Shown here piece after piece: positions 12,695 through 57,945 of a stretch of 64,000 nt of DNA (its first letter is position 1; every line of letters begins with the position of its first letter). The notes below the pieces were generated by a model. It was not told where the DNA came from and ran no database searches. It saw nothing but the letters and a program-made list of their open reading frames with translations. Source of the DNA: Planctomycetota bacterium (GTDB lineage: Bacteria > Planctomycetota > Planctomycetia > Pirellulales > PLA5). The translations under genes were made by a program, and so were the position numbers. The DNA lies in assembly GCA_003576845.1 (NCBI GenBank), contig QEVJ01000050.1, positions 1 to 64,000 of the forward strand. Reading direction: 5' to 3'.

Positions 12695-15600
12695 CTACCG
12701 CCGCGAAAACGCTCCGGCCGCGCGTCGCCGCACTTCGGCATCGTCGTGGTTCTTGAGCCGTGTCACGCGCGCCGCTCCCAGCGTCTCCGCGCTCAGCCGT
12801 CCCGCGGCAACGCGTTCGAGCACATGCTTGGCCCGCTCCGAGTTGCGCAACAGGGCATCGAGCGCGAAGTTCCGATTGCCCGGCGACAGGTGGGGCACTG
12901 CGTCCAGGAGCGCCGTTGCCGCGGGCGGTTCGTCGATGTCGCCGGCGGCGCTCGCGGCGCCCATTGCCAACTCGTCGTCCACGCCTTTCGTCAAATACTT
13001 GGCGATCTGCGTTCCGCGGCTTGACCACGTATCGCAGCCGAGCATCCGTAAAGCGTCGTAGCGCGTGCCCTTGGCGATGCGCTCGTCGTCGGCCATTGCG
13101 GCGGCGAGTTCGATCGACCTCCGCCAGCGCGCGGCAAGCGCGGCGTCGTCGCCGAGGATCTCTTTCACTCGCGGCCACGGCCAAACTCCGGCCTGCGAAA
13201 TCCCGTTGACCACGCCACCGCCGATGACCACCGCCTGCCAGTCGCGGAGCGGTTCCTTGTCACCAGGCAGCGACGCTTCAAGCACCGCTTTCAACTGCCG
13301 CGCGTCGTTCTTGCGGCCGGTGGCAATCGACACGCGCCAGATCCACGGGATGCGGCGGTATTCCTCGGACTTCTCCCCAGCATCGGCGGGCAAGCCGTCG
13401 GCCAGGGCGGTAATCAATGCGGCCGCCCGTTCGACGTTTTCCGCGACGAGCCGCTCGCGCTCGGCGGCGGGCGTTTTGTCGTCGAGGACGAGTGCGGCGA
13501 TTTCCTTTACCGGCCGCGCCGCCGCGGTTTGCGCCAACGTCGTTCGGGGTTTCCCCTCGGGCGGAACGAGTTGGAGCGTGCGCAAATCGACGAGCGCGCC
13601 GCGAATGGGTCCGTCGCTGCGCACGAGGATCGTGCTCGTGCCCGCGGATAGCGAGAGTTCGCCGATGTTCGCGAGTCGATATCGGCTCCACGCGCCGGTA
13701 CCTGCGATTCGCGTGCGGAGCGGTTCGTCCGCCGACTCGACGAGCAGCGCATTCCCCGCCGCGCCGTCGTCGCAGGCGTATTCGAGAAACGCGAGGTAAC
13801 GTCCCGCGGCGGCAAGCTCGATCGTCCACGTAGCCGAGTCGTCGGCCGTATGCCACATGCCGAGGTTGCGGAATGGGCTCTCGAACGCGAGTTCCGGTCC
13901 GCGAATTTCGCAGTTCTCGGCCGACAGTTCCAATATCCCGGTCGCGTCGGGCCGAACGGTCACGGGCGCGTTTCCGGCGAACGCTTTCGGCGGCGCGGCG
14001 GCCGAGGCGAGAAACGCCAGCAGGTCGGCCATCTGTGCCGGCGTAATGTCGCGTTCCAACCCTTCGGGCATCAGCGATTTGCCGGTCGACTGAAACTGGT
14101 CGATCTCGGCGCGCAGGAGCGTGTGCTGTTTGCCGTCTTGGGCGGTAAGCACGACGCTCGTTGCGGTTTCATTCGTCAGCAACCCGCCGATCATCAGGCC
14201 GCCGTCGGTCAGCGCCTGGTAGCTAACGTAGCGCGGATCGACGGCCTGGTTCGGATCGAGGATTGCCGCGAGCAACGTTTGGCGAGGCTTCCCGGCAAGC
14301 GGCGCGAGGTCGGGTCCCACGGCGACGCCCAGGTTGCCGAGCCGATGGCACGTGGCGCACGTCTTGGCGAACACGGTTTGCCCGCGCGACGCCGCGCCGC
14401 CGGCCGCCGCGGCAGACGCGTATCGTTCGAGAATCTGCTTGCGGTCGGCGGTTGCGGATTGGCTCAGCAGCTTCGCAGCGCGAGAGCGCACCGACTCGTC
14501 GGCCGCTTCGAGCAATCTCTGGCGATGGGCCGCGTCAAAGTCGGTTGCAGCGATCGCCCCGCGTTCGAGCGCGTCGAGCAGGGCCGCTTGTCCGGCCGAT
14601 CGCGCGAGGAGCGCATCGAGTATCGCCGCGCGCACCACAGGCGAATGGCTCGACCAGCGATCGAGAAGCAGTTTCGGCGCATCGTCGCCGGCCACCGACG
14701 CCAGCTGCGCCACGGCGGCAAGTTGGATTTCGGCGCTTGCACGCGGCGACAGGAGTTCGGCGAGCAACGCGCGGTCGGCCGGGAGAGCGGGATCTTCGCC
14801 GATTCCCAGCGATCGCAACGCGGCAATTCGATCGCGTGCCTCCGCGTCTTCGGCCGCGACGAGCTTTCGCGCCGCGGCGAGCAGATCTGCAATGCGCCGT
14901 TCGTCTTCGGCGGCGAGCTCCTGCCTCTTCGTCGCGGCACTCCGCTGCCGAGCCGCGAGCAGTTGCGCCAGCACCGCGAACTGCCACTCGCGAGGCGGCC
15001 GCTCGCCGTCGGTTGCCGCTGCGTGCAACATCTCCACCCAAAACGCCGAGTCGCTTGCCGCGAAATCCATTGCGAGCAGCGCGGAGAGCAATTGCGAGGG
15101 CGGTTCTTGTCCCCGCGACGCCGACATCGCGAGCACGCGCCGAGCAAACGGCCGCACATTCTCCCGGCGCAGCGACGACATGGCGGCGGCGACGAGATAT
15201 GCGTCGTCGCGGCGCGCCGTAGCCAGCGTCGCGAGCGCCGTTGCCGCTTCCTCGCCGGGGAACTCGCCGAGCGTGTACGCCAATTGCAACCGGACCTGGT
15301 CGTCGGCATCGCCGGTCATCGCGCTGAGTTTGGCGAGCGGACTGCCCGGCGTCTCGGCGAAACGTTCGGCGAGACGAATCGCGTGGCGGCGCACGCCGGC
15401 GTGCTCATCGGAGAGGGCGCGCTCGACCGTTCCTGGGGCGAGCGCATCCAAACCGTCGAGCGCACAGAGCGCCTGCAAGCGCGCCTGCGCTCGCCGGCTT
15501 TCTCGGGTGAGGCGTTCGAGCTGCGGCGCGACCGTGCGATCGCCCAGATCCACGAGCATTCGCTGGGCCAAATCGCGCTGTGGCCCGTTGGGCGAATCGA

Positions 15601-18307
15601 GCGCTGCAACCAACCCCGCGGCGTCCAGCTTATCGAGTCGGACGATCGGCCGCGGGCGGCGGTTTTTCGGATAGACGCGGTAGATTCGCCCCAGCGCGTC
15701 GCCGGCGCGCACGTCGAGGGCCGCCACGACGTCCGGCGGTATCCAGATCGGGTGTTCGATCACGTAGCGGTACATATCGACGACGTACAGCGCGCCGTCC
15801 GGACCGGTCCGCGCTTGCACGGGGCGGAACCAGTTGTCGCTCGACGCGAGAAACTCGGATTGTTGTTCTTCGGACGCGCGGCGGCCGCGGAACGTCGTCC
15901 CACGCGGCGACAGGACGAGACGATGCACGACCTGACACACCGGTTCGCACGTGAAGGCATTGCCGGCGAACTCCTCGCCCAGCAGTTCGTCGCGATAGAT
16001 GCCCAAGCCGCACGCGGCGGTAACGGACCCCGGCGGGCCGGACAGCTTGAACGTCACGAGCGGTGAAATCGGAAAGAGCCGGTTCGCGTTGGGGTCGTCC
16101 GCCACGTTGACGGCCGTCGCCGGCGGCGCAAACTGCGGATTGCGGCCGACGTACCGATCGACGACCGGATAGTGGCGGATCAACGTCCCGCTGTCGCAGC
16201 CGAACCAGTTGCCCCAATCGTCGCGGACGCGGCTCTGCTGCGTCTGGCCCGTCACCGGTTCGATCTCGCCGGTGTCGGGTTTCATGCGAAAATCGCGGCT
16301 GGTAAGGTCGATTTGCTGGCCCGCGAACCCGGTGATCTTGCCGCCGAACAGGCCGGTCGAAGCGTAAACCCAATTGTCGAGACCATATTGGAGACTGTTC
16401 ACGCGGGCCTGATAGTTATGCGTGGCAAAACCCGTGAAGAGCTTCTCGACGATGTCGGCTTTACCGTCGCCGTTGGTGTCTTCCGCATACAGTATGTCCG
16501 GCGCGGTACAGACGAGCACACCTTTGCGCCAGACCGTCACGCCGGTCGGAAACGGGATTCCGTCGAGAAAAGTCGCCGCGCGGTCGTAGCGGCCGTCGCC
16601 GTCCGTATCGGTAAGCACTTTGACGCGCCCGCCGGGCGCGTACTTGCCGTCGACACCCATCGGATAGTCGTGCATTTCGGCCACCCAGAGCCGGCCGTCC
16701 GCGCCGAAGTCGATCGCGACGGGATCGACGACGAGCGGTTCGGCGGCGACGAGTTCGACGGTCATTTCGGGCCGCGTGCGGATCGCCGCGAGCGACTCGA
16801 GCGGCGAGCGGGGCGACGTGCCGCCCGTCTTTGTCGCGTCGTGCGCGGCGTCGTACGCATCCGGGGTCGTCTCGTGGACCGCGTCGACGATCTTCTGTTC
16901 CAAACCGGGCACGAATCGCGACGGCATGTCGAAATAGATCATCGAGTCGCCGCCTTCGTAGCCGCCTTCGCGCAGCACGCGCTCCGACGGGATGTAGCAG
17001 GGATACTCGTTCGAATAGCCGTGAATCCAGACCCGCGAGCGGTCGAGTTCGCGTTTGAGCCGCAGCGAATAATCGACGACGACCTCGCCGGCCAAGAACA
17101 CCATCGCCAGATCGTCGCCGAACGTCCACGTTTGCACGGGATAGTCGACTTTCGTCGGCAGCGCCTCGCCGCGGTCGAGACGGGCGAGTTGCGTCTTCGC
17201 GTGGTGCGCGATCCAGCCATTCGCGTCGGCCGCGCGGCGCTGCCATTCTTCGCGTTTTGGCGCCGGAGCGAGCGGCAAGTCGATCCGTTTGTAATGCACG
17301 TCGACGCGGCCCGCGATCGATCGCGCGGGGAGCGCGGAGAGCCGCTTGACTTCTTCGCCGATCTCGCGGCCTTGGGCCATCGCTTTCTCGCCGTCGCCGT
17401 TCGTTACGCCGGAGTTTGGATTCTGATCCGCGCCGCAGCCGATCGACACCATCGCCACCGCGCCGGGGAACAGCTTCTCGATGGTCTCGGCGGCGTATCC
17501 GGCCCAATCGCCGCTGATTTTGTTGTGGCCAAACGTCACGCAGTGGCAGGCGTAGCTCGTGTAGACCGCCCGCGGCTTGCCGTCCAGATCGCGAACGAAC
17601 AGCACGGGCAGATCGTGGTCGATGACACTGCCGCCGCGGCGATTCTGGGCGAACGTCGCCCGGCCGACGCTCCACGAGAGCCGCGCGCGAGCCCGCGCGT
17701 CGAACGCTTTGGTCGCCGCCTCTTCGAGCCAGCCGGCCATCTGCTCGGTGTACTTGTCGATGTGGGCTTGATGTTCCGGCGGGATGGGCACGCCGAAGAG
17801 CGTGGCCGCCGCGCCGCGGAGCATCGGGGCCGTATGCGTGTGCGTGTAGGTAATGGTCAGCCGCTGGGGATCGAGCCCCAGCTTCTCGTGAAGACGCTTG
17901 CCGACTTGCCGCGACATCCAGTCGGGCACGCCGAGGTTGTCGACGGTCATCAAAACGGCGGCCGACTTCGCGTCGTCGCCGATCGCCAGGGCCTTGACCC
18001 AAATCTTGTGCGTCACCCCGTCGGATTCCGCCCGCCGCCCGCCGAAGCCGCTCAGCCGCACCGGATAATCGGGGGTGGCGTCGATCGCGGCGACGCCGAC
18101 CATTGCTTCGCTCGCTTTGGGATCGGTCGTGAGCTTGGGCGGCGCGGCCGGTGCTTGCGGTTTGGATGCCGTGCGAGCGGCGTCTTGTGCAGCGTCCTCC
18201 CCGCGTGCAAGACCGGTCATGATTGGGATTGCGGCGCATACCAGCGCCAGCACGACGCGACGCGCAATGCAAGCCACAGAACCTACGCCGTTGCGATCGA
18301 CCGACAT
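12695..18307 (-). CDS. Neutral ceramidase-like domain fused to PVC-type membrane-bound dehydrogenase with HEAT repeats and cytochrome c
   Basis: The 1870-residue protein starts at ATG 18307 (GGGAG ribosome site) with a signal peptide. Residues about 65-480 resemble neutral/alkaline ceramidases (VGVAAIDATPDYPVRLSGFGG, TITYTHTHTAPML, GCGADQNPNS), which hydrolyse ceramide-like amides using zinc. Residues about 505-890 are the PVC-type beta-propeller (MTVELVAAEPLVVDPVAIDF, GRLWVAEMHDYPMG). Residues about 890-1280 are HEAT-like repeats. A haem site CATCH lies at about 1315 in the PVC-type c-haem region (AILDPNQAVDPRYVSYQALT). A carbohydrate-binding-like beta domain (about 1460-1570) and a further helical region follow. 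The redox half is a standard planctomycete architecture; its fusion to a ceramidase half is unusual. The frame is intact throughout. The substrate is unknown. Confidence 0.85.
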   Translation of the reverse strand: MSVDRNGVGSVACIARRVVLALVCAAIPIMTGLARGEDAAQDAARTASKPQAPAAPPKLTTDPKASEAMVGVAAIDATPDYPVRLSGFGGRRAESDGVTHKIWVKALAIGDDAKSAAVLMTVDNLGVPDWMSRQVGKRLHEKLGLDPQRLTITYTHTHTAPMLRGAAATLFGVPIPPEHQAHIDKYTEQMAGWLEEAATKAFDARARARLSWSVGRATFAQNRRGGSVIDHDLPVLFVRDLDGKPRAVYTSYACHCVTFGHNKISGDWAGYAAETIEKLFPGAVAMVSIGCGADQNPNSGVTNGDGEKAMAQGREIGEEVKRLSALPARSIAGRVDVHYKRIDLPLAPAPKREEWQRRAADANGWIAHHAKTQLARLDRGEALPTKVDYPVQTWTFGDDLAMVFLAGEVVVDYSLRLKRELDRSRVWIHGYSNEYPCYIPSERVLREGGYEGGDSMIYFDMPSRFVPGLEQKIVDAVHETTPDAYDAAHDATKTGGTSPRSPLESLAAIRTRPEMTVELVAAEPLVVDPVAIDFGADGRLWVAEMHDYPMGVDGKYAPGGRVKVLTDTDGDGRYDRAATFLDGIPFPTGVTVWRKGVLVCTAPDILYAEDTNGDGKADIVEKLFTGFATHNYQARVNSLQYGLDNWVYASTGLFGGKITGFAGQQIDLTSRDFRMKPDTGEIEPVTGQTQQSRVRDDWGNWFGCDSGTLIRHYPVVDRYVGRNPQFAPPATAVNVADDPNANRLFPISPLVTFKLSGPPGSVTAACGLGIYRDELLGEEFAGNAFTCEPVCQVVHRLVLSPRGTTFRGRRASEEQQSEFLASSDNWFRPVQARTGPDGALYVVDMYRYVIEHPIWIPPDVVAALDVRAGDALGRIYRVYPKNRRPRPIVRLDKLDAAGLVAALDSPNGPQRDLAQRMLVDLGDRTVAPQLERLTRESRRAQARLQALCALDGLDALAPGTVERALSDEHAGVRRHAIRLAERFAETPGSPLAKLSAMTGDADDQVRLQLAYTLGEFPGEEAATALATLATARRDDAYLVAAAMSSLRRENVRPFARRVLAMSASRGQEPPSQLLSALLAMDFAASDSAFWVEMLHAAATDGERPPREWQFAVLAQLLAARQRSAATKRQELAAEDERRIADLLAAARKLVAAEDAEARDRIAALRSLGIGEDPALPADRALLAELLSPRASAEIQLAAVAQLASVAGDDAPKLLLDRWSSHSPVVRAAILDALLARSAGQAALLDALERGAIAATDFDAAHRQRLLEAADESVRSRAAKLLSQSATADRKQILERYASAAAAGGAASRGQTVFAKTCATCHRLGNLGVAVGPDLAPLAGKPRQTLLAAILDPNQAVDPRYVSYQALTDGGLMIGGLLTNETATSVVLTAQDGKQHTLLRAEIDQFQSTGKSLMPEGLERDITPAQMADLLAFLASAAAPPKAFAGNAPVTVRPDATGILELSAENCEIRGPELAFESPFRNLGMWHTADDSATWTIELAAAGRYLAFLEYACDDGAAGNALLVESADEPLRTRIAGTGAWSRYRLANIGELSLSAGTSTILVRSDGPIRGALVDLRTLQLVPPEGKPRTTLAQTAAARPVKEIAALVLDDKTPAAERERLVAENVERAAALITALADGLPADAGEKSEEYRRIPWIWRVSIATGRKNDARQLKAVLEASLPGDKEPLRDWQAVVIGGGVVNGISQAGVWPWPRVKEILGDDAALAARWRRSIELAAAMADDERIAKGTRYDALRMLGCDTWSSRGTQIAKYLTKGVDDELAMGAASAAGDIDEPPAATALLDAVPHLSPGNRNFALDALLRNSERAKHVLERVAAGRLSAETLGAARVTRLKNHDDAEVRRRAAGAFSRR

Positions 18308-18448
18308 GGAGATTGCTCCCGAAGGATCAGGAATTGCGCGGCGCACGACGATTCGTTGCCGGCCGTTCACGCGACTAAAGCCGCAGACGGGGCGCCGCGT
18401 GCACAATCGTAGTATACCGACAACGTGCTTTGTCCGCGCGCCGCTACG

Positions 18449-21400
18449 CTAACGAATCGCAGCGCGCGCTAATGCCCGCCGCGTTGCCGCAGGCGCCTCG
18501 TGCGAGAGCGCGTCGGCCAGAACCGCGTCGGCGCCACGCGGCGACAGCGCCTTCGCCTTCCGCCGCGCCACGAGCGTCGTCGGGCGAATCGCGGCGGTTA
18601 CGACGGCCTCCGGCGCTTGCAGCGGAGCGGCGGGCGCCGGAAGGCGGCCGAAGTTCGACGCGACGATCGCCAGGTCCGCTCGGTCCACGTCGCCGTCGCC
18701 GTCCAAGTCGCCGTCCGTCCACGCGGCGTCGACCAGCTTGCCGAAATTGCGCTGCACAGCGGCGATGTCCGCAAGTCCAACGGCGCCGTCGAGATTTACG
18801 TCGCCGGGCACGGTCAGCGTCAGCGTGCCGTCGATGTACGTGAACGAAAAGCCGCCGTCGCTCGCCGGACCCGACAGATCGAGCAGCGTCGTGCCGGCGG
18901 CCGATGCAAGCGAGTTGAAGTGCATGTCCACGAGCGTCGCCGCGCCCGCCGTGCCCGGTTGCGCCGAGAACGCCGCCAGGTACGCGACGCCGCCGGAGTC
19001 GTCGACGTTTTGCACGAGGCTCCAGCCGGCGGCCTCCAACTCGGCGGCCAGCGTGACTTGCTCGTTGGCGAGGTCGAGCGGACCCGTTTCGTAGTTGACC
19101 CGCAAGGTCACGCCGAACAGGCCGTCGAGGTCGTCGACCGTCACGGGGACGTGCGCCGACGCGCCCGCTTGCGCAAAGACCGCGGCCGGCACGCCGATCG
19201 CCGGATCGACGGCCGCCGGCGAAGGCGCGGGCAAGTTCGGCGGGAGGTCCGGAATCTCGGGCCGCGGCAGGAACACGGCTTTTTGTGCGACGTAAGCCGC
19301 GTCGAGCCCGCTGAGCGAACCCGTGCCCGACGAGTTGCCGATGACGACCGGATCGACGAGCGGGAAGGCGTCGAAGCCCGTGTCGAAGCCGACGACGACC
19401 CGCGAGATGAACGCGGCGTCGAAAGCCGTGTATGCGAAGTTCCCGTCGACGTCGGCGAGGAAGGCGACCTTGTGGAGCGCGGCATCGGCGATCGACGCGA
19501 TCAGCCCACCGTTGACCCGCACGTTTTCGAGCCGCACGATCTGGGCGTCGCCGATGGCTGCGGCGGTGGGGACCGTCGCGGCGATCCGCAGCACGTCGAC
19601 CGGTCCGGCCGAGAGCGCCGTTACGCCCGAAGCGGTCACCCGCGCGCGGCCGGGCTGCGTCAGGTTCGCGGTCACGGTCCAATTCGTCGGGACGCCCGCC
19701 GCCCGCGCGATCGACGAGATGTTCAACAGCGCCGGGTCGTAGACGACGTCCAAGTCGACGCTCAACACGCCCGAACCGTCGCTGAGGCGAACCGGCATTC
19801 CCGTCGACGTATTCGGCACGTGGACTGCTTGCGTCGGGCCGCGGGCAAAGTCGGGCAAGCTCACGACCCGCGCGTTTGCCGACGCCACCGTAAATGTATT
19901 CTCGTAATCGCCGCCGGGCGAAAAGTCGCCGTCGCCGTCGAGCAGATTGCCCGCCGTATCGACGAACCCCGACGCGCGGCTCGACAACCGCACGCGATAG
20001 GTGTCGGCCGCCAGCGGCGCTCCGGTCTTGATGAATGTGAATTGCGTGTAGGCCGCATTCCAAACGAGCGAACCCGCAACCGGACCGACCGCGTCGCCGA
20101 CGAGCGTCGCGTCGGCCGGCTCGACTTCCGCGTCGGGACCGTCGTAGAGATTGACGGAGCTCGCGTCCACCGGGCGGTCGAACGTCACGACGAATCCGGT
20201 GCTCGTCGGCGCGAGGCTGCTGACGAGGAACGTCGGCTCGACGATCACTTGGAACAAGTCCACGCCGACGCCGCCGTCGTCGTCCGTGACGCGAACCTGG
20301 ACCGCCTTCGTGCCGGGCGTGGCGTATTGCAATTCGAGCGTAAACGTGTTGTCGGCGGCGAGCGCGAGCGGCACGAAGCCGCCGCCGTCGCCGTAGTCGA
20401 CTTCGGCGGTCCACGCGTCGTCGCCGGGGTCGTCGAACGAGCCGCCGCGGACGACCGTTGTGCCGGGGTCCGTCGTTACGTCTTCGCCGGCGTCGACGCT
20501 CGGGGCGACGTTGTTTACCGTCACCGCGTGAACCGCCCCGACGTGAACGCCGTCGTCGTCGACCAAACCGTCGTTCCAATCGACGCGCCACTCGGACACC
20601 GTGTCGGCGCCGGAATCGGCGACGGGGCCGACCGCTAGCGAGTACGCCGCTCCTTCGTCGATGGCCGCATCGCCGGCAAGCGCCACGGTCGGAGAAGCAT
20701 TCGCCACGGTGGCAAAGAACGACCGCACGGACGTTTGCCCCGTCGGGTCCGTCAGCCGCACGACGACGTGGTACTGCCCGTCGTCGGCGTAGGTGTGCTG
20801 GCCGTCCAAGGAGCCGAAGCCAATCGCACTTATTGGAGCAAGTGGGTCGAGAGCGATGCTAAGCGTCTTCCAAGTGCCGGGAATATTGAGGGCCAGGATG
20901 TCCTCGATACCCGAGCCGTTAAGATTAGAGCGCTGAATGTGCGTAGCAGTACTCCAATAGAGCTTTGAGTTCGTTGAATCTAGCTCGATATCGAACGCGC
21001 GAACATTCTGAAAGAACGTCCCTATGTTGTCGCCAGATAGGTCGCCGCGACCGAGCAACGGAGTCGTGCGTCCAATGTTGCTGGCCGTGAAATAAAACTG
21101 GGCGTTCGCTGAGTCGAACGCGATGTGGACACTCGAGTAGGTCACATCGAGCTTCTTGAGTTGCTGGTCGTTAGCGCCAGTTCCAGCGTCCATTCGTCGA
21201 ATACTATCGGCGTTTGTGTAGTATACGAGCCCTGACTGCACATCCACCTCAATGTCGTGTGTGTACTGCAAGCCAAGATCAACGATCGTACGTATATTTG
21301 TTCCGTCCAAGTTGGCTACCTGGATCCCGCGTTGATGGTCTCCAAAGTACAATTCACCGCGGGACGGGGATACCGCGAAGCCATAGATATCAGCAGTGGA

Positions 21401-24400
21401 TACTTGCGGCCCTTCAACAATGTATTCCAAGTCACTCCCATCGTAGTTGCTACGCCAAATCATTCCCGAACCATTTCGCGTGCCGTAATAATAAAGCTTT
21501 CGGGCCGTTCTATCGACGTCAATGAATGCTTCATTTCCAACGCCCGCAGGGCGAACGTACACCGCGTGCATGTTTGACCCGTCGAGATTTGCGCGATAAA
21601 CGCTCCCGTCGTTATCGAAGAAAACGGCTCCCTCGCCAGACGTGAGCGACACAGAACCGTTGTCGGGATTTGTGCCGTCGCCCCAGTCGATCGAATAGGT
21701 GTAGTTACCCAAGTCGAAATCGGCGAAGGTTGCCAGGTCGACGGCGACGAGCGGCGTTCCTTCGGTCGCGATCGCGGTCGCGGATAGCTTGGCAAAGACG
21801 ACGTCCCAGCCGCCGGCATGGTTGGCGGCGAGACTTCCTTGCGAGATGGCGGCGAGATAGACGTTTCCCGCGGCGTCGACGGCGGCGCCCCAGGGCAAAT
21901 CGCTGGCCTGCGTGCCGAATTGGAGCACGGATTGCCGCGTGCCGGCGGTGTCGTAGCGGGCAAGAAACAGGTCGTTGACGCCGAGGTTCGGGCGGCCGAA
22001 ATTCCCCGCAGTGAACCCAGCGACGATGACGTTGCCCTCGGCGTCAACCGCCAGGCCGCGCTGCTGATCGGCGGCGCTGGTTCCGTCTTGAACCGCCCAG
22101 AGCAGTGTCCCTTGCGGGTCGAACTTGTGGACGTGAAAGTCGCTTCCGCCGCGGTTGGGTCCTGCGAGACTGCCGCTAGTCGTGCCGGTGGTGTACACGT
22201 TTCCGTTGGCATCGAGCCGGACGTTGTGCCCGATTTCGTCCGCGCTCGTGCCGAGTTGTCGGGTCCAGACGCGATTTCCCTCGCGGTCGTAGCGGGCGAC
22301 GAACGCATCGAGCGCGCCGGCATTCTGCGCGGCGAGATCGCCGTTGGTCACGCCGCCGCCGTAGACATTTCCCGCCGCATCGACCGCAACGGACAAGAAG
22401 CTATCGTTGTCGCCGGTCGTGCCGAGGATTCTGGTCCAGAGCAAGTTTCCATCGGTATCGTATTTCGCGATGTAACCATCCGTGCCGGCAAGGTTCGTTC
22501 CTCCCAAGTCGCCGTTCGTGCCGCCGACGATGTATGCGTTGCCGTCCGCGTCGAGCGCCAAGCCGCGGTTCACGTCGAGGGCGGGAGAGCCTAATTGCTG
22601 GGACCAGATGAGTTGGCCGTCGGCGGTGTACTTGCTCAGGAAAGCGTCGGTCTGGCCCGCGTTTGGCCCGCCGAGGCTGCCGATCGTGTCGCCGGACACA
22701 AACACGTTCCCGTCGGCGTCGACGGCCACGCCGCGGGCCACGTCGCCTTCGGGCGTGCCGAACTGGATCGTCCATAGGCGATTGCCGGCAGGATCGATCT
22801 TGCCCAGGATCACGTCGTTCGAGCCGAGATTCGCCACCACGAGATCGCCCTGCGTGTAGCCGGCGAAGTACGAGTTGCCCGCCGCGTCGATTGCCATCGC
22901 GCGGCCTTCCTCGTTTGCGGACGTGCCGAACTGCTGGATCCAACCGGCGTTTATCTGGGGGTTGAGCGTCACGGTCGGCGGCCCGCTGCGGACGGTGACG
23001 GTAAACGAGTCCGTTCCGACGCCGCCGTCGTCGTCGGCAACGCGGACTGTCACGGTGTGCGATCCGGGCGCCGGGTAATCGTGATTCAGGGTAAACTGCT
23101 TGTTGGCGGCCAGCGCGAGCGGTGCGAAACCGGCCCCGTCGCCGTAATCGACTTCGGCCGTCCACGTGTCGCTGCCCGGATCGGCAAACGTGCCCGTGCG
23201 CGTCAAGGCCGCGCCGGCGTCGATCGTCGTGGCGTTTCCCGCGTCGACGATCGGGGCCACGTTGGCGACGCTTACCGATTGCGTCGCTGCGAGATGCGAG
23301 CCGTCCTCGTCGACGAGCGTCACTTGAACGAGCCGTTCCTCGGGACCGTCGGCGAACACGTGCGCGATCGTTCCCGGCGGCGATGTGAACACGTCGATGG
23401 GCGAGCCGTCGTTCCAGTCGATGCGCCACTGGCTGACCGTGTCCGATCCCGGGTCTACGACTGCGCCAAGCGTGAGTTGATACGCCGTCCCTTCGTTGAC
23501 GTTCGCCGCGCCGGAAACAGCGAGCGTCGGCGCTACGTTGCCGACGGTCACCTGGAAGGGACGCGAACTCGAAGCGCCGGAGGGATCGGTCACCCTCAGG
23601 GTCGCCGTGTACACGCCGTCGTCCGCATAGGTGTGCGAACCGCCGGCGACGCCGCGAAGGATCGCGCCCGCGCTTACGTCCGAAACGTACAACAGCGAGT
23701 CGGCGATCGCCGGACCGGTCTCGCCCGGCAGGACCAGCGTGATGTCGTCGATGCCGAAACCGTCCGTGGTCGTTTGATTGCGAAGGACCGTGAAGCGGAT
23801 GAACGGATTGCTCGGATCGACCAGGCCGTAGTAAGCGACGCTGCCGTCGTTGTTGTTGCCGGGCGTCGGACTGGCCATCGTGGGCAGTAAGCGGCGGATC
23901 GTCGTCGATCCGTCGGCGAGCACGAACTCGACGGTGATATTTCCTGGATTTTCGGCGTCGGTCACGTAGAAGCCGACGCCGATCTGCGGCTGTGCGAAGT
24001 CGATCGAGAACACGGGACCGATCGGCCCCGCGTCGACGAACAGCATTTTGTCGCCGGTCGTCGGAAACGCGCCGTTGAGCGTGCCGGTCGGCTGCGCGCG
24101 AATCGACTGCCCGGCGGAGAGGACCGCGGTTTGCCCGCCGAGATTCAAGAACCTCGGGATTAGGATCGTGCCGGTCGGCAGATTCTCGAACGACTCGGTC
24201 GCCGTGCCGTTCGCGGCCAATCCCACGAGCGCGTTGCGCGCGCTGTCGGCGTTGGGATGGGGAATTCGGCTGGCCGTGCCGCCGCCCGAGAGATTCGTGC
24301 GATTGAGGTCTTCGCCGAATGTCTCGCCGCGGCGGACGTCGCCGGCCGTCGCGGGCGATCCGTCGCCCCAGTCGATCGTGTACGCATACTCGCCGCCGTC

Positions 24401-27400
24401 ACGGTCGATGAACGTTGCGATCTCGGCGATCGCGAGCGGCAGGCCCTCGGTCGCGGTGCGGTCGTCGATTGCCGACAACACGGGCGGCACGCCCGTTACC
24501 GTCACTTGAAAACTTGCGGACCCGAGTCCGCCCTCGTCGTCGCGGACGCGCACCGTGACCGTAAACGTTCCGGTGGCGAGGTAGACGTGCACTGCGTCGA
24601 GCGAGCCTTGCGTGGCCACGCCGGGGGCGCCGGGGACGTCGATCGTCGGTACGCCGGCGTCGAGCGGCGATCCGTCGCCCCAGTCGATCGTGTACATAAA
24701 CGTTTCCGAGCTTGGCGGCGAAACGCTCGTGCTCGAAAATCCCGGATCTGAAAACGTGGCGATGTCGGAGATCGACAGCGCGATGCCTTGGAGGGCGGCT
24801 TGATTGCCGACGGCCGTCACTTGCGGGGCGACGTTGGTGATGGACACGGTGCGGAGTTGCGTGCTCGAACCCGCATCGTCGTCGACGAGCGTGACGACGA
24901 TTCCGTAGGAACCGCCGTCGGCATAACGATGCGACGCCTGAAACTCGCCGGTCGTGGGCACGCCCGGACCGCCGGGCGTAACGGTCACGACGGGCAGAAC
25001 GACCGGCAGCGTGCCGTCGCCCCAGTTGATCCAATAGGAGAACGTCTCCCGCGTCGGGCCGTTGGGGTGCGTGGGATTGTCGTAGCCGGGGTCTAAGACG
25101 GTTGCGGAGAGCGTCACGAGGCTTCCTTCCGAAGCGGCGGAGGGCGTGTTCAAGATGACCGCGGGCGCGATGTTCGTCACGTTCACGGGGAACTGGGTCG
25201 AACGGGTGCCGCCGTCGTCGTCGGTCACCGTCACGCTGACCGTGTAGACGCCGTTGTCGGCGTAATGATGCGTCGCCGGAATGATTCCTTGCGTCGCGAC
25301 TCCGGGCGAACCGGCGACGGTTACGGTCGCCGCGCCGCTCGACGGAGCGGAGTTGTCGCCCCAATCGACTTGATACGTGAACGTCTCCGTCGTCGCGCCG
25401 CCGGGCATAGACGGGTTGTCGAAGCCCGGATCGGTAAATGCGATTCCGGCCAGCGAGTAGAGCGCGCCTTCGGCCGCCTGTTGGAAACCGATCGAGCCGA
25501 ACACGGGCGCGGCGTTGCCGACGCCGAACGTCGTGCCTCCCGTCGCCGTGCGTTCCGGCGACTGCTGGTCGACGAGCGTGAGCGACACCGAGTACGAACC
25601 GTTGTCGGCGTAGACGTGCGTCGGCCGGACGCTGGACGTTGCCGCGCCGAGCGCGATTTGTTCGAGGCTGCCGTCGCCCCAGTCGATGGTGAGCGTGTGC
25701 GCGTGGCCGTAGTTCTGGAACGTGACGTCGAAGGCGCTTGCCTGGCCTTCCGGCGCTGCCGCGACGTTCGCGACGGCAAGCGCCAGGTCGTTGAACTGTC
25801 CGCCGAACAAGACGTAACCGCGGCCCGCGTTCGAGCGTCCCGCGGGATCGGCGTAGTATGCGCCGACGATCACGTCGTCAAAACCATCGCCGTTCACGTC
25901 GCCCGCGCCGGCGACGGACGAGCCCGCCAGATCGTTGGCCGCCGCGCCTTGGATGGTCAGGCCATTGAGGCCGTCGACGGTTTCGAGGCTTTGCTCGGCG
26001 GCAAAACCGCCGGCCTTGCCGAAGACGAGATAAGCCTCGCCGGCGTCGGTGCGGCCGAGCGGATCGCCGCGGACCGCGCCGAGGATGAGGTCGTCGAAGC
26101 CGTCGCCATTCACGTCGCCCGCGCCGTCGACCGAACGTCCCGCGCGATCGGCCGGGTCGATGCCGACGAGCGCGAACCCGTTCGTCCCATTCAGGCTCGA
26201 AAGCTCCATCTGGGCGGGAAACGCGCCGCCGTGTCCGAACACGACGTAAACCTCGCCGACGCGGACCTCTCCCGGCTCGGAATGGTCCCACGCGCCGATG
26301 ATCAGGTCGTCGTAGCCGTCGCCGTTGATGTCGCCGCCGCGACCGACGGCTCGGCCCGCGGCGTCGCTCGCCGCGATGCCGTTGAGGGCGAAGCCATTCG
26401 CGCCGTCGAGGCTGCTGAGGTTGAGTTGGGGCGCAAATCCGCTCGCTTTGCCGAACACGACGTAGGCCCGGCCCGCCTGATCGCGTCCGCCGGGGTCGGC
26501 GCGATAGGCGCCGATCAGGATGTCGTCGAAGCCGTCTCCGTTGACGTCGCCGGCGCTCGACAGCGACGCGCCGGCATAGTCGCCGATCGCCGCGCCGTTG
26601 ATGACGAAGCCGTTGGCGCCGGTGAGCGACGCCAGCGTAACGAGCGTGCCGAAGCCGGTCGTCCGCCCAAACACGACGTAAGCCTGGCCGCTACGAACGT
26701 TGCCGTTCGGGCTTGCCTCGGGCGCACCGACGAGCACGTCGCCGATGCCGTCGCCATTCACGTCGCCCGCGGCGCTCACGGCCCAGCCGGCCTTGTCGAA
26801 GGCCGCCGCGCCGCGAATCTGAAACCCGACGGAAGACCCCATCGAGGCGAGGTCGATCACCGACGGGAACGCCGTGGTGCGGCCGAAGACGACGTAGGCT
26901 TGTCCCACCTGGTCGAGCCCTGCGGTCTGGGCCGTGTCGAACGAGCCGAGGATCAGATCGTCGACGCCGTCGCCGTTGACGTCGCCGGCCGTGCGGACGG
27001 AAAAGCCGGAGCGGTCGAACGCTTCCGCGCCGCGAATGCGAAAGCCGTTGGTTCCATTGAGCGCGGCGGCGTCGACGCTGGCGGGAATTCCGCTCGCCGC
27101 GCCGAACACGACGTAGGTCTCTCCCGATTGCGTGCGTCCGGCGATCGTGGCATTGTGCGCGCCGACGACGACGTCGGCGAAGCCATCGTTGTTGACATCG
27201 CCCGCCGGACCGACGGAATACCCGGCGAAAGCGTTGGCCGCGGCGCCGTCGATGGCGAAGCCGAGATTGCCGAGATTGGCAAGGTCGATCGTGGGGCCGA
27301 CGACGGCCAGCAATTGCCGACTCTCAAGGTGTTCGAGCGAGAGCCGAGTCCTTCGTAGCTCCGAATGTGAATGCAACCTTGTCCTGCGTGTCCTGCGTTG

Positions 27401-27418
27401 CGTCGTGGCGAGGTCCAT
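18449..27418 (-). CDS. Giant FG-GAP / PKD / SBBP beta-propeller / dockerin surface protein
   Basis: The 2989-residue protein opens with a basic segment and an LEPR-XLL-like export motif (LEHLESRQLLAVV). In order it carries seven FG-GAP repeats (about 45-530, each with a calcium-type DVNGDGxDD loop), several PKD domains (IDWGDGS ... HTYADDGVY), an SBBP-type propeller (about 1490-1885, repeats of VDAAGNVYxxG), a YWTD/LDL-receptor-like propeller (about 1910-2200), more PKD/Cadherin-like domains, a cohesin-like region and a dockerin pair (GDVNLDGAVGLADIAAVQ, GDLDGDGDVDRADLAIVASNFG). A 60-residue tail follows. Two of the PKD domains are interrupted by other domains. It is a likely cell-surface adhesin or binding scaffold, about 300 kDa, with no catalytic site seen. 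Confidence 0.88.
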   Translation of the reverse strand: MDLATTQRRTRRTRLHSHSELRRTRLSLEHLESRQLLAVVGPTIDLANLGNLGFAIDGAAANAFAGYSVGPAGDVNNDGFADVVVGAHNATIAGRTQSGETYVVFGAASGIPASVDAAALNGTNGFRIRGAEAFDRSGFSVRTAGDVNGDGVDDLILGSFDTAQTAGLDQVGQAYVVFGRTTAFPSVIDLASMGSSVGFQIRGAAAFDKAGWAVSAAGDVNGDGIGDVLVGAPEASPNGNVRSGQAYVVFGRTTGFGTLVTLASLTGANGFVINGAAIGDYAGASLSSAGDVNGDGFDDILIGAYRADPGGRDQAGRAYVVFGKASGFAPQLNLSSLDGANGFALNGIAASDAAGRAVGRGGDINGDGYDDLIIGAWDHSEPGEVRVGEVYVVFGHGGAFPAQMELSSLNGTNGFALVGIDPADRAGRSVDGAGDVNGDGFDDLILGAVRGDPLGRTDAGEAYLVFGKAGGFAAEQSLETVDGLNGLTIQGAAANDLAGSSVAGAGDVNGDGFDDVIVGAYYADPAGRSNAGRGYVLFGGQFNDLALAVANVAAAPEGQASAFDVTFQNYGHAHTLTIDWGDGSLEQIALGAATSSVRPTHVYADNGSYSVSLTLVDQQSPERTATGGTTFGVGNAAPVFGSIGFQQAAEGALYSLAGIAFTDPGFDNPSMPGGATTETFTYQVDWGDNSAPSSGAATVTVAGSPGVATQGIIPATHHYADNGVYTVSVTVTDDDGGTRSTQFPVNVTNIAPAVILNTPSAASEGSLVTLSATVLDPGYDNPTHPNGPTRETFSYWINWGDGTLPVVLPVVTVTPGGPGVPTTGEFQASHRYADGGSYGIVVTLVDDDAGSSTQLRTVSITNVAPQVTAVGNQAALQGIALSISDIATFSDPGFSSTSVSPPSSETFMYTIDWGDGSPLDAGVPTIDVPGAPGVATQGSLDAVHVYLATGTFTVTVRVRDDEGGLGSASFQVTVTGVPPVLSAIDDRTATEGLPLAIAEIATFIDRDGGEYAYTIDWGDGSPATAGDVRRGETFGEDLNRTNLSGGGTASRIPHPNADSARNALVGLAANGTATESFENLPTGTILIPRFLNLGGQTAVLSAGQSIRAQPTGTLNGAFPTTGDKMLFVDAGPIGPVFSIDFAQPQIGVGFYVTDAENPGNITVEFVLADGSTTIRRLLPTMASPTPGNNNDGSVAYYGLVDPSNPFIRFTVLRNQTTTDGFGIDDITLVLPGETGPAIADSLLYVSDVSAGAILRGVAGGSHTYADDGVYTATLRVTDPSGASSSRPFQVTVGNVAPTLAVSGAANVNEGTAYQLTLGAVVDPGSDTVSQWRIDWNDGSPIDVFTSPPGTIAHVFADGPEERLVQVTLVDEDGSHLAATQSVSVANVAPIVDAGNATTIDAGAALTRTGTFADPGSDTWTAEVDYGDGAGFAPLALAANKQFTLNHDYPAPGSHTVTVRVADDDGGVGTDSFTVTVRSGPPTVTLNPQINAGWIQQFGTSANEEGRAMAIDAAGNSYFAGYTQGDLVVANLGSNDVILGKIDPAGNRLWTIQFGTPEGDVARGVAVDADGNVFVSGDTIGSLGGPNAGQTDAFLSKYTADGQLIWSQQLGSPALDVNRGLALDADGNAYIVGGTNGDLGGTNLAGTDGYIAKYDTDGNLLWTRILGTTGDNDSFLSVAVDAAGNVYGGGVTNGDLAAQNAGALDAFVARYDREGNRVWTRQLGTSADEIGHNVRLDANGNVYTTGTTSGSLAGPNRGGSDFHVHKFDPQGTLLWAVQDGTSAADQQRGLAVDAEGNVIVAGFTAGNFGRPNLGVNDLFLARYDTAGTRQSVLQFGTQASDLPWGAAVDAAGNVYLAAISQGSLAANHAGGWDVVFAKLSATAIATEGTPLVAVDLATFADFDLGNYTYSIDWGDGTNPDNGSVSLTSGEGAVFFDNDGSVYRANLDGSNMHAVYVRPAGVGNEAFIDVDRTARKLYYYGTRNGSGMIWRSNYDGSDLEYIVEGPQVSTADIYGFAVSPSRGELYFGDHQRGIQVANLDGTNIRTIVDLGLQYTHDIEVDVQSGLVYYTNADSIRRMDAGTGANDQQLKKLDVTYSSVHIAFDSANAQFYFTASNIGRTTPLLGRGDLSGDNIGTFFQNVRAFDIELDSTNSKLYWSTATHIQRSNLNGSGIEDILALNIPGTWKTLSIALDPLAPISAIGFGSLDGQHTYADDGQYHVVVRLTDPTGQTSVRSFFATVANASPTVALAGDAAIDEGAAYSLAVGPVADSGADTVSEWRVDWNDGLVDDDGVHVGAVHAVTVNNVAPSVDAGEDVTTDPGTTVVRGGSFDDPGDDAWTAEVDYGDGGGFVPLALAADNTFTLELQYATPGTKAVQVRVTDDDGGVGVDLFQVIVEPTFLVSSLAPTSTGFVVTFDRPVDASSVNLYDGPDAEVEPADATLVGDAVGPVAGSLVWNAAYTQFTFIKTGAPLAADTYRVRLSSRASGFVDTAGNLLDGDGDFSPGGDYENTFTVASANARVVSLPDFARGPTQAVHVPNTSTGMPVRLSDGSGVLSVDLDVVYDPALLNISSIARAAGVPTNWTVTANLTQPGRARVTASGVTALSAGPVDVLRIAATVPTAAAIGDAQIVRLENVRVNGGLIASIADAALHKVAFLADVDGNFAYTAFDAAFISRVVVGFDTGFDAFPLVDPVVIGNSSGTGSLSGLDAAYVAQKAVFLPRPEIPDLPPNLPAPSPAAVDPAIGVPAAVFAQAGASAHVPVTVDDLDGLFGVTLRVNYETGPLDLANEQVTLAAELEAAGWSLVQNVDDSGGVAYLAAFSAQPGTAGAATLVDMHFNSLASAAGTTLLDLSGPASDGGFSFTYIDGTLTLTVPGDVNLDGAVGLADIAAVQRNFGKLVDAAWTDGDLDGDGDVDRADLAIVASNFGRLPAPAAPLQAPEAVVTAAIRPTTLVARRKAKALSPRGADAVLADALSHEAPAATRRALARAAIR

Positions 27419-27496: not shown

Positions 27497-28618
27497 TTAA
27501 CTCGCGCCGCCCGAGTCGAGATCGATAATCCGCTGGATTTCATCCGTCTTGAATCCCAGCGCCATGGGCCGCCTTACGTTGGGCAGCACCACGACGTCGT
27601 ACAGTTCCGCGACGATCCCATCGAGCCGCAGCCAGTGGACGAGGTCGCCGGAATTCAGGTTGACGATGGCGATGCCGCACCAGGCTTCGGCGTCGCGGGC
27701 TGCGAGCGCGTCTTGTAGCGCGAGTTTTGCAAACGTCTCGCTCGCCCGCAGCTTCGACAGCCCGACGACGGCATATCCGTCGCACAGCGCGAGACCGCGC
27801 GCATATCCCGGACAAAACGTTACGCGCTGAAACTCACTCGTTTGCGCGCCGCCGTCGCGCGGAGCGTCGCTTGACTTAACGCGCGCGCTCACGTCGATGT
27901 ACCCAAGAAAACCCGTGCCGCTGTCGAGCAGCCATAGCTTGTCGTCGGCGAGGCGCGGCGAATGCGGCATCGACAGGCCGCCGGCCACGGTCTCGTTCGT
28001 CGCGATATCGAGAACGCAGCCGCCGTCGCGCGAGCGGTCGCGCCACCCGCCGGCCATGTCGCTGCGACTGCACAGCGTCGCGAATCGCGGCGCGCCGTCG
28101 TGCATCGCCAAGCCGTTGAGATGACAGCGATCCTCGGCCGCCAATCGCGAGATAAACGGCGGCCGCCACAGGGGCGTGAAGCTGTAGCGCTCGCTTACCG
28201 TGGCGACGCAACTGAAGAGCGCGTTGGCGAACACCGCGTGGCCGGTTGCGTCGACGGCGATGTCGTGGGCGTCGACGTCGCCGGTCGTGTAGCCGACGCG
28301 GGGGACGTAGAGGCGGTCGTAGCCTTCGTGGGTTTGGCCCGGTTCGAGGGCGTTCTCGAACCGCCAGATCTGATAGAGCGAGGTCATCCAGAGGGTTTGG
28401 TCGTCGCCCCAGAGGCCCATTGCTCGATTGAAGGTCCGCTCGAAGACGGAGAGCCGTCCGTCCGGTTGCAGGCCAACGAGAAAGAGCTTGCCCGTTTGGT
28501 AGGTCGTCAGCGCCAAGCTCACCCGCTGCTCGGCGAGCCAGGCGGCGAAGTGCCGCGACGCCGTTAGCGACACGGCGGGCGTGCCAGGGGCGTCGGGCGA
28601 CGGGGCCGCTTGCGACAT
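27497..28618 (-). CDS. TIGR03032/DUF4915 family protein
   Basis: The 373-residue protein has the hallmark start of the family: FAAWLAEQRVSLALTTYQTGKLFLVG, then FNRAMGLWGDDQTLWMTSLYQIWRFEN, DAHDIAVDATGHAVFANALFSCVATV, WRPPFISRLAAEDRCHLNGLAM and a C-terminal segment HWLRLDGIVAELYDVVVLP. The family is cytoplasmic, predicted to fold as a beta-propeller, and is widespread in Planctomycetota and Cyanobacteria without an assigned reaction. It lies 78 bases upstream of the giant surface gene on the same strand, but co-function is only a guess. The start at 28618 matches the family N-terminus after a short Ala/Pro lead. Confidence 0.88.
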   Translation of the reverse strand: MSQAAPSPDAPGTPAVSLTASRHFAAWLAEQRVSLALTTYQTGKLFLVGLQPDGRLSVFERTFNRAMGLWGDDQTLWMTSLYQIWRFENALEPGQTHEGYDRLYVPRVGYTTGDVDAHDIAVDATGHAVFANALFSCVATVSERYSFTPLWRPPFISRLAAEDRCHLNGLAMHDGAPRFATLCSRSDMAGGWRDRSRDGGCVLDIATNETVAGGLSMPHSPRLADDKLWLLDSGTGFLGYIDVSARVKSSDAPRDGGAQTSEFQRVTFCPGYARGLALCDGYAVVGLSKLRASETFAKLALQDALAARDAEAWCGIAIVNLNSGDLVHWLRLDGIVAELYDVVVLPNVRRPMALGFKTDEIQRIIDLDSGGAS

Positions 28619-52165: not shown

Positions 52166-55100
52166 TTAGTCGGTTGAAGCGCTGAGCCGCAATGGTCTGG
52201 TGACCGTTCGCACGGCTTGTGACCGCTCTCGGACCGTTTCGCGCGACTCGTGAGCGGCGTCGACGGCTTGGGGACGAACGAGACCGCGGCGCGCGGCGTG
52301 CAAGCGTAGCGGCGGAACTGGTTCGCCCCCGCGGTCGGCGCGTGGTGACCGCGCGGAACGCACGATGGCCGCCGGGGCGCTGGGGATAGGGCTGGGCGCG
52401 CTGCGACCGAAGTTTTGCGCCAAGATCGCCGCATCGGCCGCGGTTACTTTCGCGTCGCCGTTGAGGTCGCCGCTTGCGCGCGTCGCGCCGGCGAGCGTGC
52501 CGAGGTTGGCTTGGACGATCGCCAGATCGAGCAGATCGACGCGCAGGTCGCCATTGAGGTCGCCATCGAGAACGGGCGTATCGTCGGCCGCCGGCGAACC
52601 GCCGATCGCGTAGCTCGGACGCCACGCCGCCGGATCGTTCCACGTCGCTACCGGCGCGGCGGCGTCGAGGATGACCAGCGAGTAACCGTCGCCGTCGGTC
52701 GTCGGGTGCCAGCCTTCGCCGACGTCGTCGTAGGTAAACTCCTGGATCGCGACGCCGTCGCCGTCCTCCAAACGGACCGTTTCGCCCGCGTTGTTGAGCT
52801 GGCCGCTGTACGTGCCAGCCACAGGAAGTCCCGAACCATATCTCAGGGCAAACGCCTCGGCATTGGAGACGACGAGCGCGTACGCGCCCGGCGCGAGCGA
52901 ACTCACGGCGCTTCCCGCAAAGTCGAAGGCGACGCCGTTCGTGAACCGGGCCTCGCTCAGGTCGAGCGTCGTTTCATCGCTGATGTTGCGCAGCTCGACG
53001 AACTCGAACGCATCCGCGTCGTAGCCGAACTGAAGGTCGTCGGCCGGGTGATACATCAACTCGGTGACTCGCAGAAAGTCGTTGAGCGGCCGCGACGAGA
53101 CGGTGCTCGAAACCGTCACGGTGTCCGTGCCAACGACATTGCCTTGGTGGTCGAGAGCTTCGAGCACAATGGTGTTCGAGCCGAACGCGACGGGGATTGT
53201 CGTCTGCCAACTGTCGAAGTCGGTCCAGGTCACGTCGAGCGGATCGGTGGTTCCCGCGACGCGAATCTCGCGGACGTTGATCCAGCCGTCGCCCGCGATC
53301 GTCGCCACTGTGTCGTTCACCTGCTGGCCGTTGGGCGTGGTGATGTTGAACGGCACATTGGGCGCAACGGTGTTGAGCTGCGACAGGACGTAGTTTCCGC
53401 GCTGCGTGATGTACGTCGCATAGTTGCCGTAGCTCTCGCCGGTCAGCGAACCGTAGTGCGTCGTCCACGCGGTCATGTAGGCGGGATTGTAGACCGTCTG
53501 GATCATGTCGAGCATGTGGCCGTAGTACAGGCGGCGATAGATGGGCCGGTCGATCACTTCCGTGACGTTGCGGTTCTCGATGCCATACAGCGGCGAAGTC
53601 GCGCCGTAGCTGGCGACGAAGTTCCAATCCCAGGGGAGCGCGAGCAGCTTGCCGTCCGACGGGCGAATGTAGAAGTCGATGTTGTGCGGATTGCCCTGCA
53701 TGTAGGCGTCGCCGATGCCCCAGAGATTCTGCAGCGCGAACACCCGCATCCACTGGTCGACGTCGATGTAGTCGTCGACGGCCTGCTCCAATTGTAGACC
53801 CGATAGGCTCAGCGCCTGCATGGCGTCGACCAGCGGGCCGTAGTCGTCCTTGGCCCGATTGTTCATGATCTGGATCGACCAGCGGTACTGCTCCTTGTCG
53901 TCTCCGAGGTTGGTCAGGTCGTAGCTGCTGATCCAACCGACGGGCTGATAGGTCTTGAGCGATTCCGCGCCCGTGTTGTTGAGGAGCACGCGGATGCCCT
54001 GCATTTTGAACACGGTACCATCGCCGCCGTCTTCGTACTGCGTGGTGATATACTCGTCGCCGTAGCGGGCCATCGACATGTTGGCGACGCTGCTCACGCC
54101 CGGCGACGCGGTAATCATATAGATCACGTCGTCGTACATCTCCGGCACGCCGACTTGCAGGGCGGTGTGCTTGACGAGAATTTCGGCGCGGCCAGCCGCC
54201 TTCATCGTTACGCTGCGGTGCACCCCGCGAAACAAGTGGTCGGGCTGGAACTTGATGTTGTAGCCGGTGCTGGACGGGTTCCCGCGGCTGAACATGCTGC
54301 CGCGCTGGCGGATGCCGACGTCATAAAACACTTCGGTTTCGTCGTAGACAATGGTCCCGCCGAGACGCTGGTTGCTCATCATGTTCGTGGCGGTGAACAT
54401 CTTGGCGAGATCGGCCGCCGTCATAATCATGCGGAAGTTGTGGCGCGCGCCGGATTGCGCGGCGCCGTCATTCCATTTGATGAGCGCGCGCGAATTCGGT
54501 CCGGCCGCCGGATAGGTCGAGATTGCGCCGAGCGCGTCCTGACCTTGGACGTAGAACTGCACGACCGTGCCGGCCGCTTGCCCGGGGATGCTGGCCGCGT
54601 ACTCGCCGCCGGCCGTTGCCGTCATCGCGACGTTGTTCCACGCGCCGCCGGCCACCGAGTAGTACAGCCGCATCGACGCCACGCCGTCCGGGTCGCTCGG
54701 CAGCACCGTCACGGTCGCGGGCTGGCTCGCCGTCGGCACGGCGGGACCGTGGCGGAAGTTCTCGTAGGTCGGGCCGATGTTCGGCGCGTAGGTCGAGTTC
54801 TGCCAGCCGGGCGTGCCGCTCAGTGTGGGCTGGTCGAGTATGTCGAGCTTCACGACCCGGTTGTAATACAGCTCAGTTCGCAACTGCGGCGAACCGGAAA
54901 GCCACTTCGCATCGAACGAGATTCTATAGGTGCGGCCGGGCACGATGGGCAAATTGCCCACGGTCGTGGTTTCCAGCAGATTGTCGAGATAGTCTGCTTT
55001 CGACTCGGCGACGATCCGCAACACTTTGTTGGTCGGGTCGTCGGGATCGGCAGCGACGTGCGTGCCTTCGTGCGTGCCGAGGAACCGCCATTTGTTCGCG

Positions 55101-57835: not shown

Positions 57836-57945
57836 TCCATACACTCCGCGACACGAGGCCAGACGAACGGAGAAAAAGACCGAGGCCGTCCGGTTTCCCG
57901 CACGGCCCCGCGAACTCATAGGGGATTGAGCCAACGATCCGTGAA

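Follow-up and report, generated by a model that had tools for sequence, protein, structure and literature searches.

The open frame studied here raises the question whether a ceramidase-type hydrolase and the propeller, HEAT and c-haem set of the PVC-type haem-binding proteins are really encoded on one chain and, if so, what such a chain might do. In the window (the whole stretch of DNA that was analysed, 64,000 nucleotides of a Planctomycetota genome), positions 12695-18307 of the minus strand form a single open frame of 1870 codons, which was translated without meeting an internal stop. A putative ribosome-binding site, GGGAG (18316..18320), can be read from the sequence 8 nt before the ATG. 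Judged by eye from the translation, residues 1-36 (18200..18307) resemble a signal peptide, with a basic n-region, a hydrophobic stretch and small residues, and the protein is probably exported, as far as its sequence indicates.

The domains follow one another along the minus strand as given here. A neutral-ceramidase-fold domain occupies residues 68-488 (16844..18106; Pfam PF04734, profile and AlphaFold2 model), within which Pfam places Ceramidase_alk at residues 70-280 with 40.7 bits against a cut-off of 32.1. It is followed by a DUF7133/TIGR02604 propeller at residues 501-882 (15662..16807; Pfam, NCBIfam and AlphaFold2 model), which Pfam matches as DUF7133 over its full length with 492.9 bits. 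A HEAT-repeat region extends over about residues 890-1290 (14438..15640; PF13646, HEAT_2, in three stretches), and a TIGR02603 c-type cytochrome domain over residues 1305-1435 (14003..14395; Pfam, NCBIfam and profile), with Pfam Cytochrom_C at residues 1307-1374. The NCBIfam matches TIGR02604 (residues 516-882) and TIGR02603 (1305-1435) each exceed the curated cut-off. The haem-attachment motif CATCH (residues 1317-1321, 14345..14359) is the sole CxxCH of the whole chain. Behind the cytochrome lie a CBM35/CBM6-like module (residues 1446-1589, 13541..13972; profile A4) and a conserved C-terminal module (residues 1609-1870, 12698..13483; profile A5) that appears HEAT-like by cross-matching. Frame, Pfam and NCBIfam thus bear out a preliminary description of the locus, in which a ceramidase-type part was joined to propeller, HEAT and c-haem on one chain; the domains that it named are all present, and the CBM35-like and C-terminal modules were missing from its list.

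A simple possibility is that an assembly error or a lost stop codon has merged two genes. Nothing speaks for this except the unusual length of the frame. Of 386 distinct genomes from the window's phylum, 34, counting the window's own, were confirmed to carry the same fused frame, with ceramidase and propeller parts. These genomes came from two sets (294 and 97, with 5 in common), and the count is a lower bound: at least 34 carriers among the matches listed and fetched, with the best 5 candidates per genome scored in the 294-genome set. The cytochrome part also matches in 31 of the 34 fused frames, and the remaining 3 run off their contigs. Carriers include single-contig genomes, and a genome of the same genus (G294) has the same fused frame with 86% identity in the ceramidase part. 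In a second collection, which may share genomes with the 386-genome set, both parts were found in one frame in 34 of the best 80 loci, and the cytochrome too in 29. A missing stop or an assembly error is therefore ruled out for practical purposes, the chance that we leave to it being negligible.

These counts also bear on the earlier statement that the architecture is not a standard one. Its rarity did not hold up, since the fusion recurs across families of the phylum and in Verrucomicrobiota-titled records. By record title, which for genomes from metagenomes can be wrong, the 34 fused loci of the second collection comprise 26 from Planctomycetota and 8 from Verrucomicrobiota; the complete domain set is found, for example, in Singulisphaera sp. 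GP187 (L176). The ceramidase part stands alone in every one of the 17 Poribacteria-titled loci of the best 80. When a 194-genome sample of the phylum of the Pedosphaera-titled genome G386 (L167) was searched, matches at E up to 1e-40 were obtained in 8 of the 194, and only the seed itself has a frame long enough for the fusion, which is therefore rare in that phylum. A description of the fusion was not found among the open-access papers listed, approached from the ceramidase, PVC-type haem protein and carbohydrate-esterase angles. Both halves are of already known kinds, and the joint architecture is a recurrent one.

The two parts have been joined or separated repeatedly. On a tree of the ceramidase domain, the fused and non-fused states require at least 16 changes (parsimony minimum, undirected, over 117 labelled rows). 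The tree, of 119 rows, was built by a 'quick' method with no bootstrap and has 33 of its 116 inner branches open and one very long row, L138 (second copy). L086 and L087, which duplicate L104 and L105, were omitted; two rows cut by contig ends were left unlabelled, which gives the 117 of 119 rows counted. Since rows were picked for their likeness to the query, the proportions among them do not represent frequencies. The order of the parts can also be reversed: in G130 (L073) it reads propeller-HEAT-cytochrome-CBM-ceramidase. In addition, 31 non-fused loci were inspected with about 1.5 kb of flank each; in 4 of them (L057, L060, L062, L064) the gene immediately upstream, on the same strand, encodes a protein that ends in the same cytochrome domain.

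To what extent is the ceramidase half a ceramidase? A single-sequence phmmer search of this part against the PDB returned no ceramidase, its best match being a ribosomal protein (E 0.0084). With profile A1, made from 40 domains, the matches at E up to 0.1 comprised two different solved sequences, the neutral ceramidases of Pseudomonas (2zws/2zxc, E 1.6e-24) and of human (4wgk, E 4.9e-23). The AlphaFold2 model of the domain (pLDDT 96.2; 82 sequences) supports the same assignment, with Z 38.7 and rmsd 3.5 over 391 residues of 2zws, while the best other fold reached Z 4.2.

The active-site residues can be located on the minus strand of the gene. His156 and His158 of an HTHT motif (17831..17842) are aligned with His97 and His99 of the P. 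aeruginosa enzyme, and His255 (17543..17545) with His204. Glu408 (17084..17086) is aligned with Glu411, and Tyr438 and Tyr450 (16958..16996) with Tyr448 and Tyr460; these alignments come from a second profile stretch that is weak alone, and the fold match spans the same region. The zinc ligands of the P. aeruginosa enzyme, which we take to be His97, His204, Glu411 and Tyr448, would correspond here to His156, His255, Glu408 and Tyr438. Likewise, His158, Arg223 (17639..17641, in an NR motif), Tyr438 and Tyr450 are presumed to stand for human His196, Arg257, Tyr579 and Tyr591, and the Ser of the motif GDVSPN for human Ser354. His156, His158, Arg223, His255, Glu408, Tyr438 and Tyr450 are invariant in 40/40 and in 82/82 sequences. 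A dead hydrolase is thus unlikely, and the comparison of zinc ligands with solved structures that the preliminary description proposed shows them conserved.

According to the accessible part of PMC6952831, His196, Arg257, Tyr579 and Tyr591 are critical in human neutral ceramidase, Ser354 keeps Arg257 in place, and GDVSPN is named as a ceramidase motif. The studied protein reads GADQNPN in place of GDVSPN. Its Asp294-Gln-Asn296 (17420..17428, minus strand), placed by motif since the profile alignment stops before that site, occupies the position of D-V-S, with Asn replacing Ser. Over the 82 sequences the Asp is found in all, and the Ser position holds Asn in 76 and Ser in none. The C-terminal Ig-like domain of ceramidases is absent: Pfam gives no match to such a domain at E of 1 or below, and along 2zws the structural match extends as far as residue 488. 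In the studied chain the next domain is the propeller. Compared with the neutral/alkaline ceramidases (PF04734; 2zws, 2zxc, 4wgk), the protein has the same catalytic fold, aligned zinc ligands and the catalytic His/Arg/Tyr/Tyr, but differs in its 16-20% identity, the Asn in GDVSPN, the missing C-terminal domain, the sugar-active partners and a far longer chain. The ceramidase half therefore has the catalytic machinery of neutral ceramidases and yet is not classed as a ceramidase, because the Ser of GDVSPN is replaced and the C-terminal domain is missing.

The second half is that of a PVC-type haem-binding CxxCH protein (TIGR02604, HEAT and TIGR02603, as in Lac161_ORF7), with the same order, scores over cut-off and the CxxCH; the studied chain differs in the ceramidase-like hydrolase added before it and the CBM35-like and C-terminal modules added after it. 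The propeller profile A3 matched no solved chain even at E up to 10. Its AlphaFold2 model (pLDDT 89.8) lies closest to the PQQ-dependent sugar dehydrogenases and AA12 enzymes (3a9g, 2ism, 6jt5, 6h7t), at 13-20% identity. The best entry is 3a9g with Z 26.3, and all 16 best structural entries are of this type (Z 23.4-26.3). The margin is modest, lactonases (about 22.8) and generic propellers following at Z about 22-23, and the Foldseek list also includes the non-enzyme Hedgehog-interacting protein. The cytochrome-domain profile matches solved c-type cytochromes, best 7zs0.

When 392 genomes of the phylum were searched for pqqC, matches were obtained in 11, 2 of them over the cut-off, and in 0 of 14 control genomes. 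The gene was not found in the window's own genome, which is 99% complete, and none of the 11 matching genomes is among the 34 known carriers of the fusion; 18 of the 34 (the window's genome and 17 others) are named as searched, and the other 16 are simply absent from the matches. A home-made PQQ cofactor is therefore unlikely, and the name 'dehydrogenase' is unproven. It is possible that PQQ is taken up from outside by the organism. From the part of PMC5342196 that is accessible, a purified verrucomicrobial protein with TIGR02604, HEAT and c-haem (Lac161_ORF7) hydrolysed lactose with a Km of 1.8 mM; it was described as a hydrolase and not as an oxidase, and whether it carried haem is not stated there. 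In freshwater Verrucomicrobia a different planctomycete-type cytochrome c set, PSCyt1 to PSCyt3, is connected with carbohydrate-binding modules, and the accessible text states that the functions of these genes are not known (PMC5615132). The window's genome has DUF7133 in 19 frames (22 matches), 18 of them other genes. At locus L106 a second DUF7133-HEAT-cytochrome protein (17403-21107, plus strand), with a weak match to a GH2 sugar-binding domain near its start, is encoded about 3 kb from a fused gene.

For profile A4, which covers the module at residues 1446-1589, a match was obtained to an exo-beta-D-glucosaminidase CBM35 (2vzp, E 1.4e-5); modules from an agarase, a mannanase and a GDSL enzyme were matched less strongly. 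Of the module's 20 members, 13 match CBM_35 and 11 match CBM_6 with E values of 0.1 or below. The likeness to CBM35 is one of the profile; the studied protein's own copy, with 18.2 bits, stays under the Pfam cut-off of 28. Profile A5, for the C-terminal module, contains 16 sequences and also matches HEAT regions. In L174 (9071-11272, plus strand) this module stands directly before a ceramidase-like domain, and propeller and cytochrome are absent from the chain.

The partners of the ceramidase-like domain were surveyed in chosen chains, which is not a census. It is combined with SGNH/GDSL domains (L101, L102, L178, L049, L050, L051, L053), with glucuronyl or acetyl-xylan-type esterases (L127, L129, L136, L137) and, in L033 (661-2874, minus strand), with an SMP-30/gluconolactonase propeller. 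A polysaccharide deacetylase occurs in chains that also carry the fusion (L092, L093), LamG in L138 and in a fused chain (L070), a nucleoside hydrolase in another fused chain (L128), and FG-GAP in L110. No further recognised domain was found beside it in L099 or in L022 (the same gene as L100). Most of the recognised enzymatic partner families act on sugars or glycans; SGNH/GDSL is broad. In the window's genome, 5 of 6 ceramidase-family matches lie outside the studied gene; an 1145-residue open frame (L002/L006; G000 contig C52, 30479-32533) has two ceramidase-like matches in tandem. No consistent glycan operon was found near 22 fused loci, the commonest neighbour families reaching 3 of the 99 neighbours scanned (of 128 picked, each cut to 400 residues).

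We propose, with a probability of roughly 45%, that the protein is a deacylase which is exported and bound to a glycan, and whose reaction is coupled to the oxidation or cleavage of a sugar, the haem serving as acceptor. Following the chemistry of neutral ceramidases, in which a water is bound to zinc and His, Arg and Tyr assist, the N-terminal hydrolase would take an acyl group off a sugar or glycan; the group would probably be an N-acyl, for instance acetyl, and possibly an ester. The propeller, like the PQQ sugar dehydrogenases in fold, may next act on the same sugar by oxidation or oxidation-assisted cleavage, and electrons would pass from it to the haem that the chain itself carries. The HEAT repeats would serve as a scaffold, and the CBM35-like module may keep the chain on its glycan. 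A glycan substrate is suggested because sister domains have sugar-active partners, because the chain has a CBM35-like module and because a relative of the propeller-HEAT-haem half is reported to cleave lactose (PMC5342196). The preliminary description had offered a sphingolipid-like or an amino-sugar amide as the substrate; a carbohydrate amide is still plausible, and the case for the sphingolipid is weakened by the substituted Ser in GDVSPN, by the absence of the ceramidase C-terminal domain, by the CBM35-like module and by fusion partners that are sugar-active. We know of no activity established for any fused member. A bolder form of the proposal, in which the ceramidase fold is a zinc deacylase on sugars and the amino sugar that it exposes is then cleaved or oxidised by the haem-linked propeller of the same exported chain, with no need for PQQ, seems quite unlikely at present.

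In favour of a deacylase coupled to a sugar-active propeller are the recurrence in 34/386 genomes, the at least 16 state changes, the reversed order in L073 and the upstream cytochrome gene in 4/31 loci, together with the invariant zinc-site and catalytic columns that match solved neutral ceramidases and the nearness of the propeller to PQQ sugar dehydrogenases and AA12. Counting against it are that pqqC was not found in this genome or in 17 other searched carriers, the match to Hedgehog-interacting protein, the lack of a consistent operon and a relative reported as a hydrolase (PMC5342196). Two serious rivals have to be weighed, and the odds given to them and to our reading overlap and do not sum to one. 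Two independent activities, acting in unrelated steps or on unrelated substrates, may have been joined for joint export or co-regulation; we regard this as doubtful. Both parts occur apart, as 5/6 ceramidase matches and 18/19 DUF7133 frames lie outside the gene, and the many partners of the ceramidase domain point to a loose modularity. Yet the same two parts are joined repeatedly, in both orders, and are also found as neighbouring genes, and repeated joining of the same parts usually signals a shared substrate or pathway.

The other serious rival concerns the propeller, which might be a glycoside hydrolase, lyase or lactonase and not a dehydrogenase, the haem being a mere electron carrier or vestigial. 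The lactose-hydrolysing relative (PMC5342196) fits this, as do the search for pqqC, which found none in the window's genome or 17 other searched carriers, the SMP-30/gluconolactonase propeller that takes its place in L033, and the lactonases matched at Z about 22.8. However, the cytochrome is joined in the 31 of the 34 carriers whose frame stays within the contig, and the nearest folds are oxidoreductases, so that we hold this alternative to be rather unlikely. Less likely than either is a true ceramidase or lipid amidase, which would split ceramide-like lipids and leave the propeller to oxidise the head-group product. The neutral-ceramidase fold and zinc site would suit such an enzyme, but the GDVSPN Ser is found in 0/82 sequences and Asn in 76/82, the ceramidase C-terminal domain is absent, and the partners and the CBM35-like module are of sugar-active kinds; we consider it improbable.

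Such bacteria have many PVC-type haem-binding proteins, as the 19 DUF7133 frames of this genome illustrate, and Pfam still lists their propeller (DUF7133) as a domain of unknown function. Because the propeller is repeatedly fused to a hydrolase whose zinc site can be recognised, there is now a concrete way to approach its substrate. If the deacylase proposal is true, many bacterial proteins with a 'neutral/alkaline ceramidase' annotation may be sugar deacylases. If its bolder form, on amino sugars without PQQ, holds, the ceramidase fold would gain the role of a broad carbohydrate-deacylase family, and a coupled substrate would be assigned to PVC-type haem proteins for the first time.

Some further genes were noted in the window and in the related loci. 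Directly upstream of the fused gene, on the same strand, the window encodes a 2989-residue protein (18449-27418, minus strand) with PKD, FG-GAP, beta-propeller repeat, cohesin and dockerin; a DUF4915 protein (27497-28618, minus strand; 436.9 bits) and a 1922-residue protein with three Lamin Tail stretches, a CotH-like domain and dockerin (52166-57934, minus strand) lie farther on. Around the Poribacterial standalone genes the neighbours are housekeeping-like (53 of 117 picked neighbours scanned, 8 of 14 loci); these neighbourhoods were not used in reading the fused protein. The Poribacterial genes in L148 (9899-11299) and L163 (9962-11302) each encode a standalone ceramidase-like protein, about 450-465 residues long, in which little precedes the domain. 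On one side both adjoin alanine racemase and an ABC ATPase, and on its other side L148 has dapA, dapF and dusB, which may hint at a cytoplasmic, cell-wall-related amidase.
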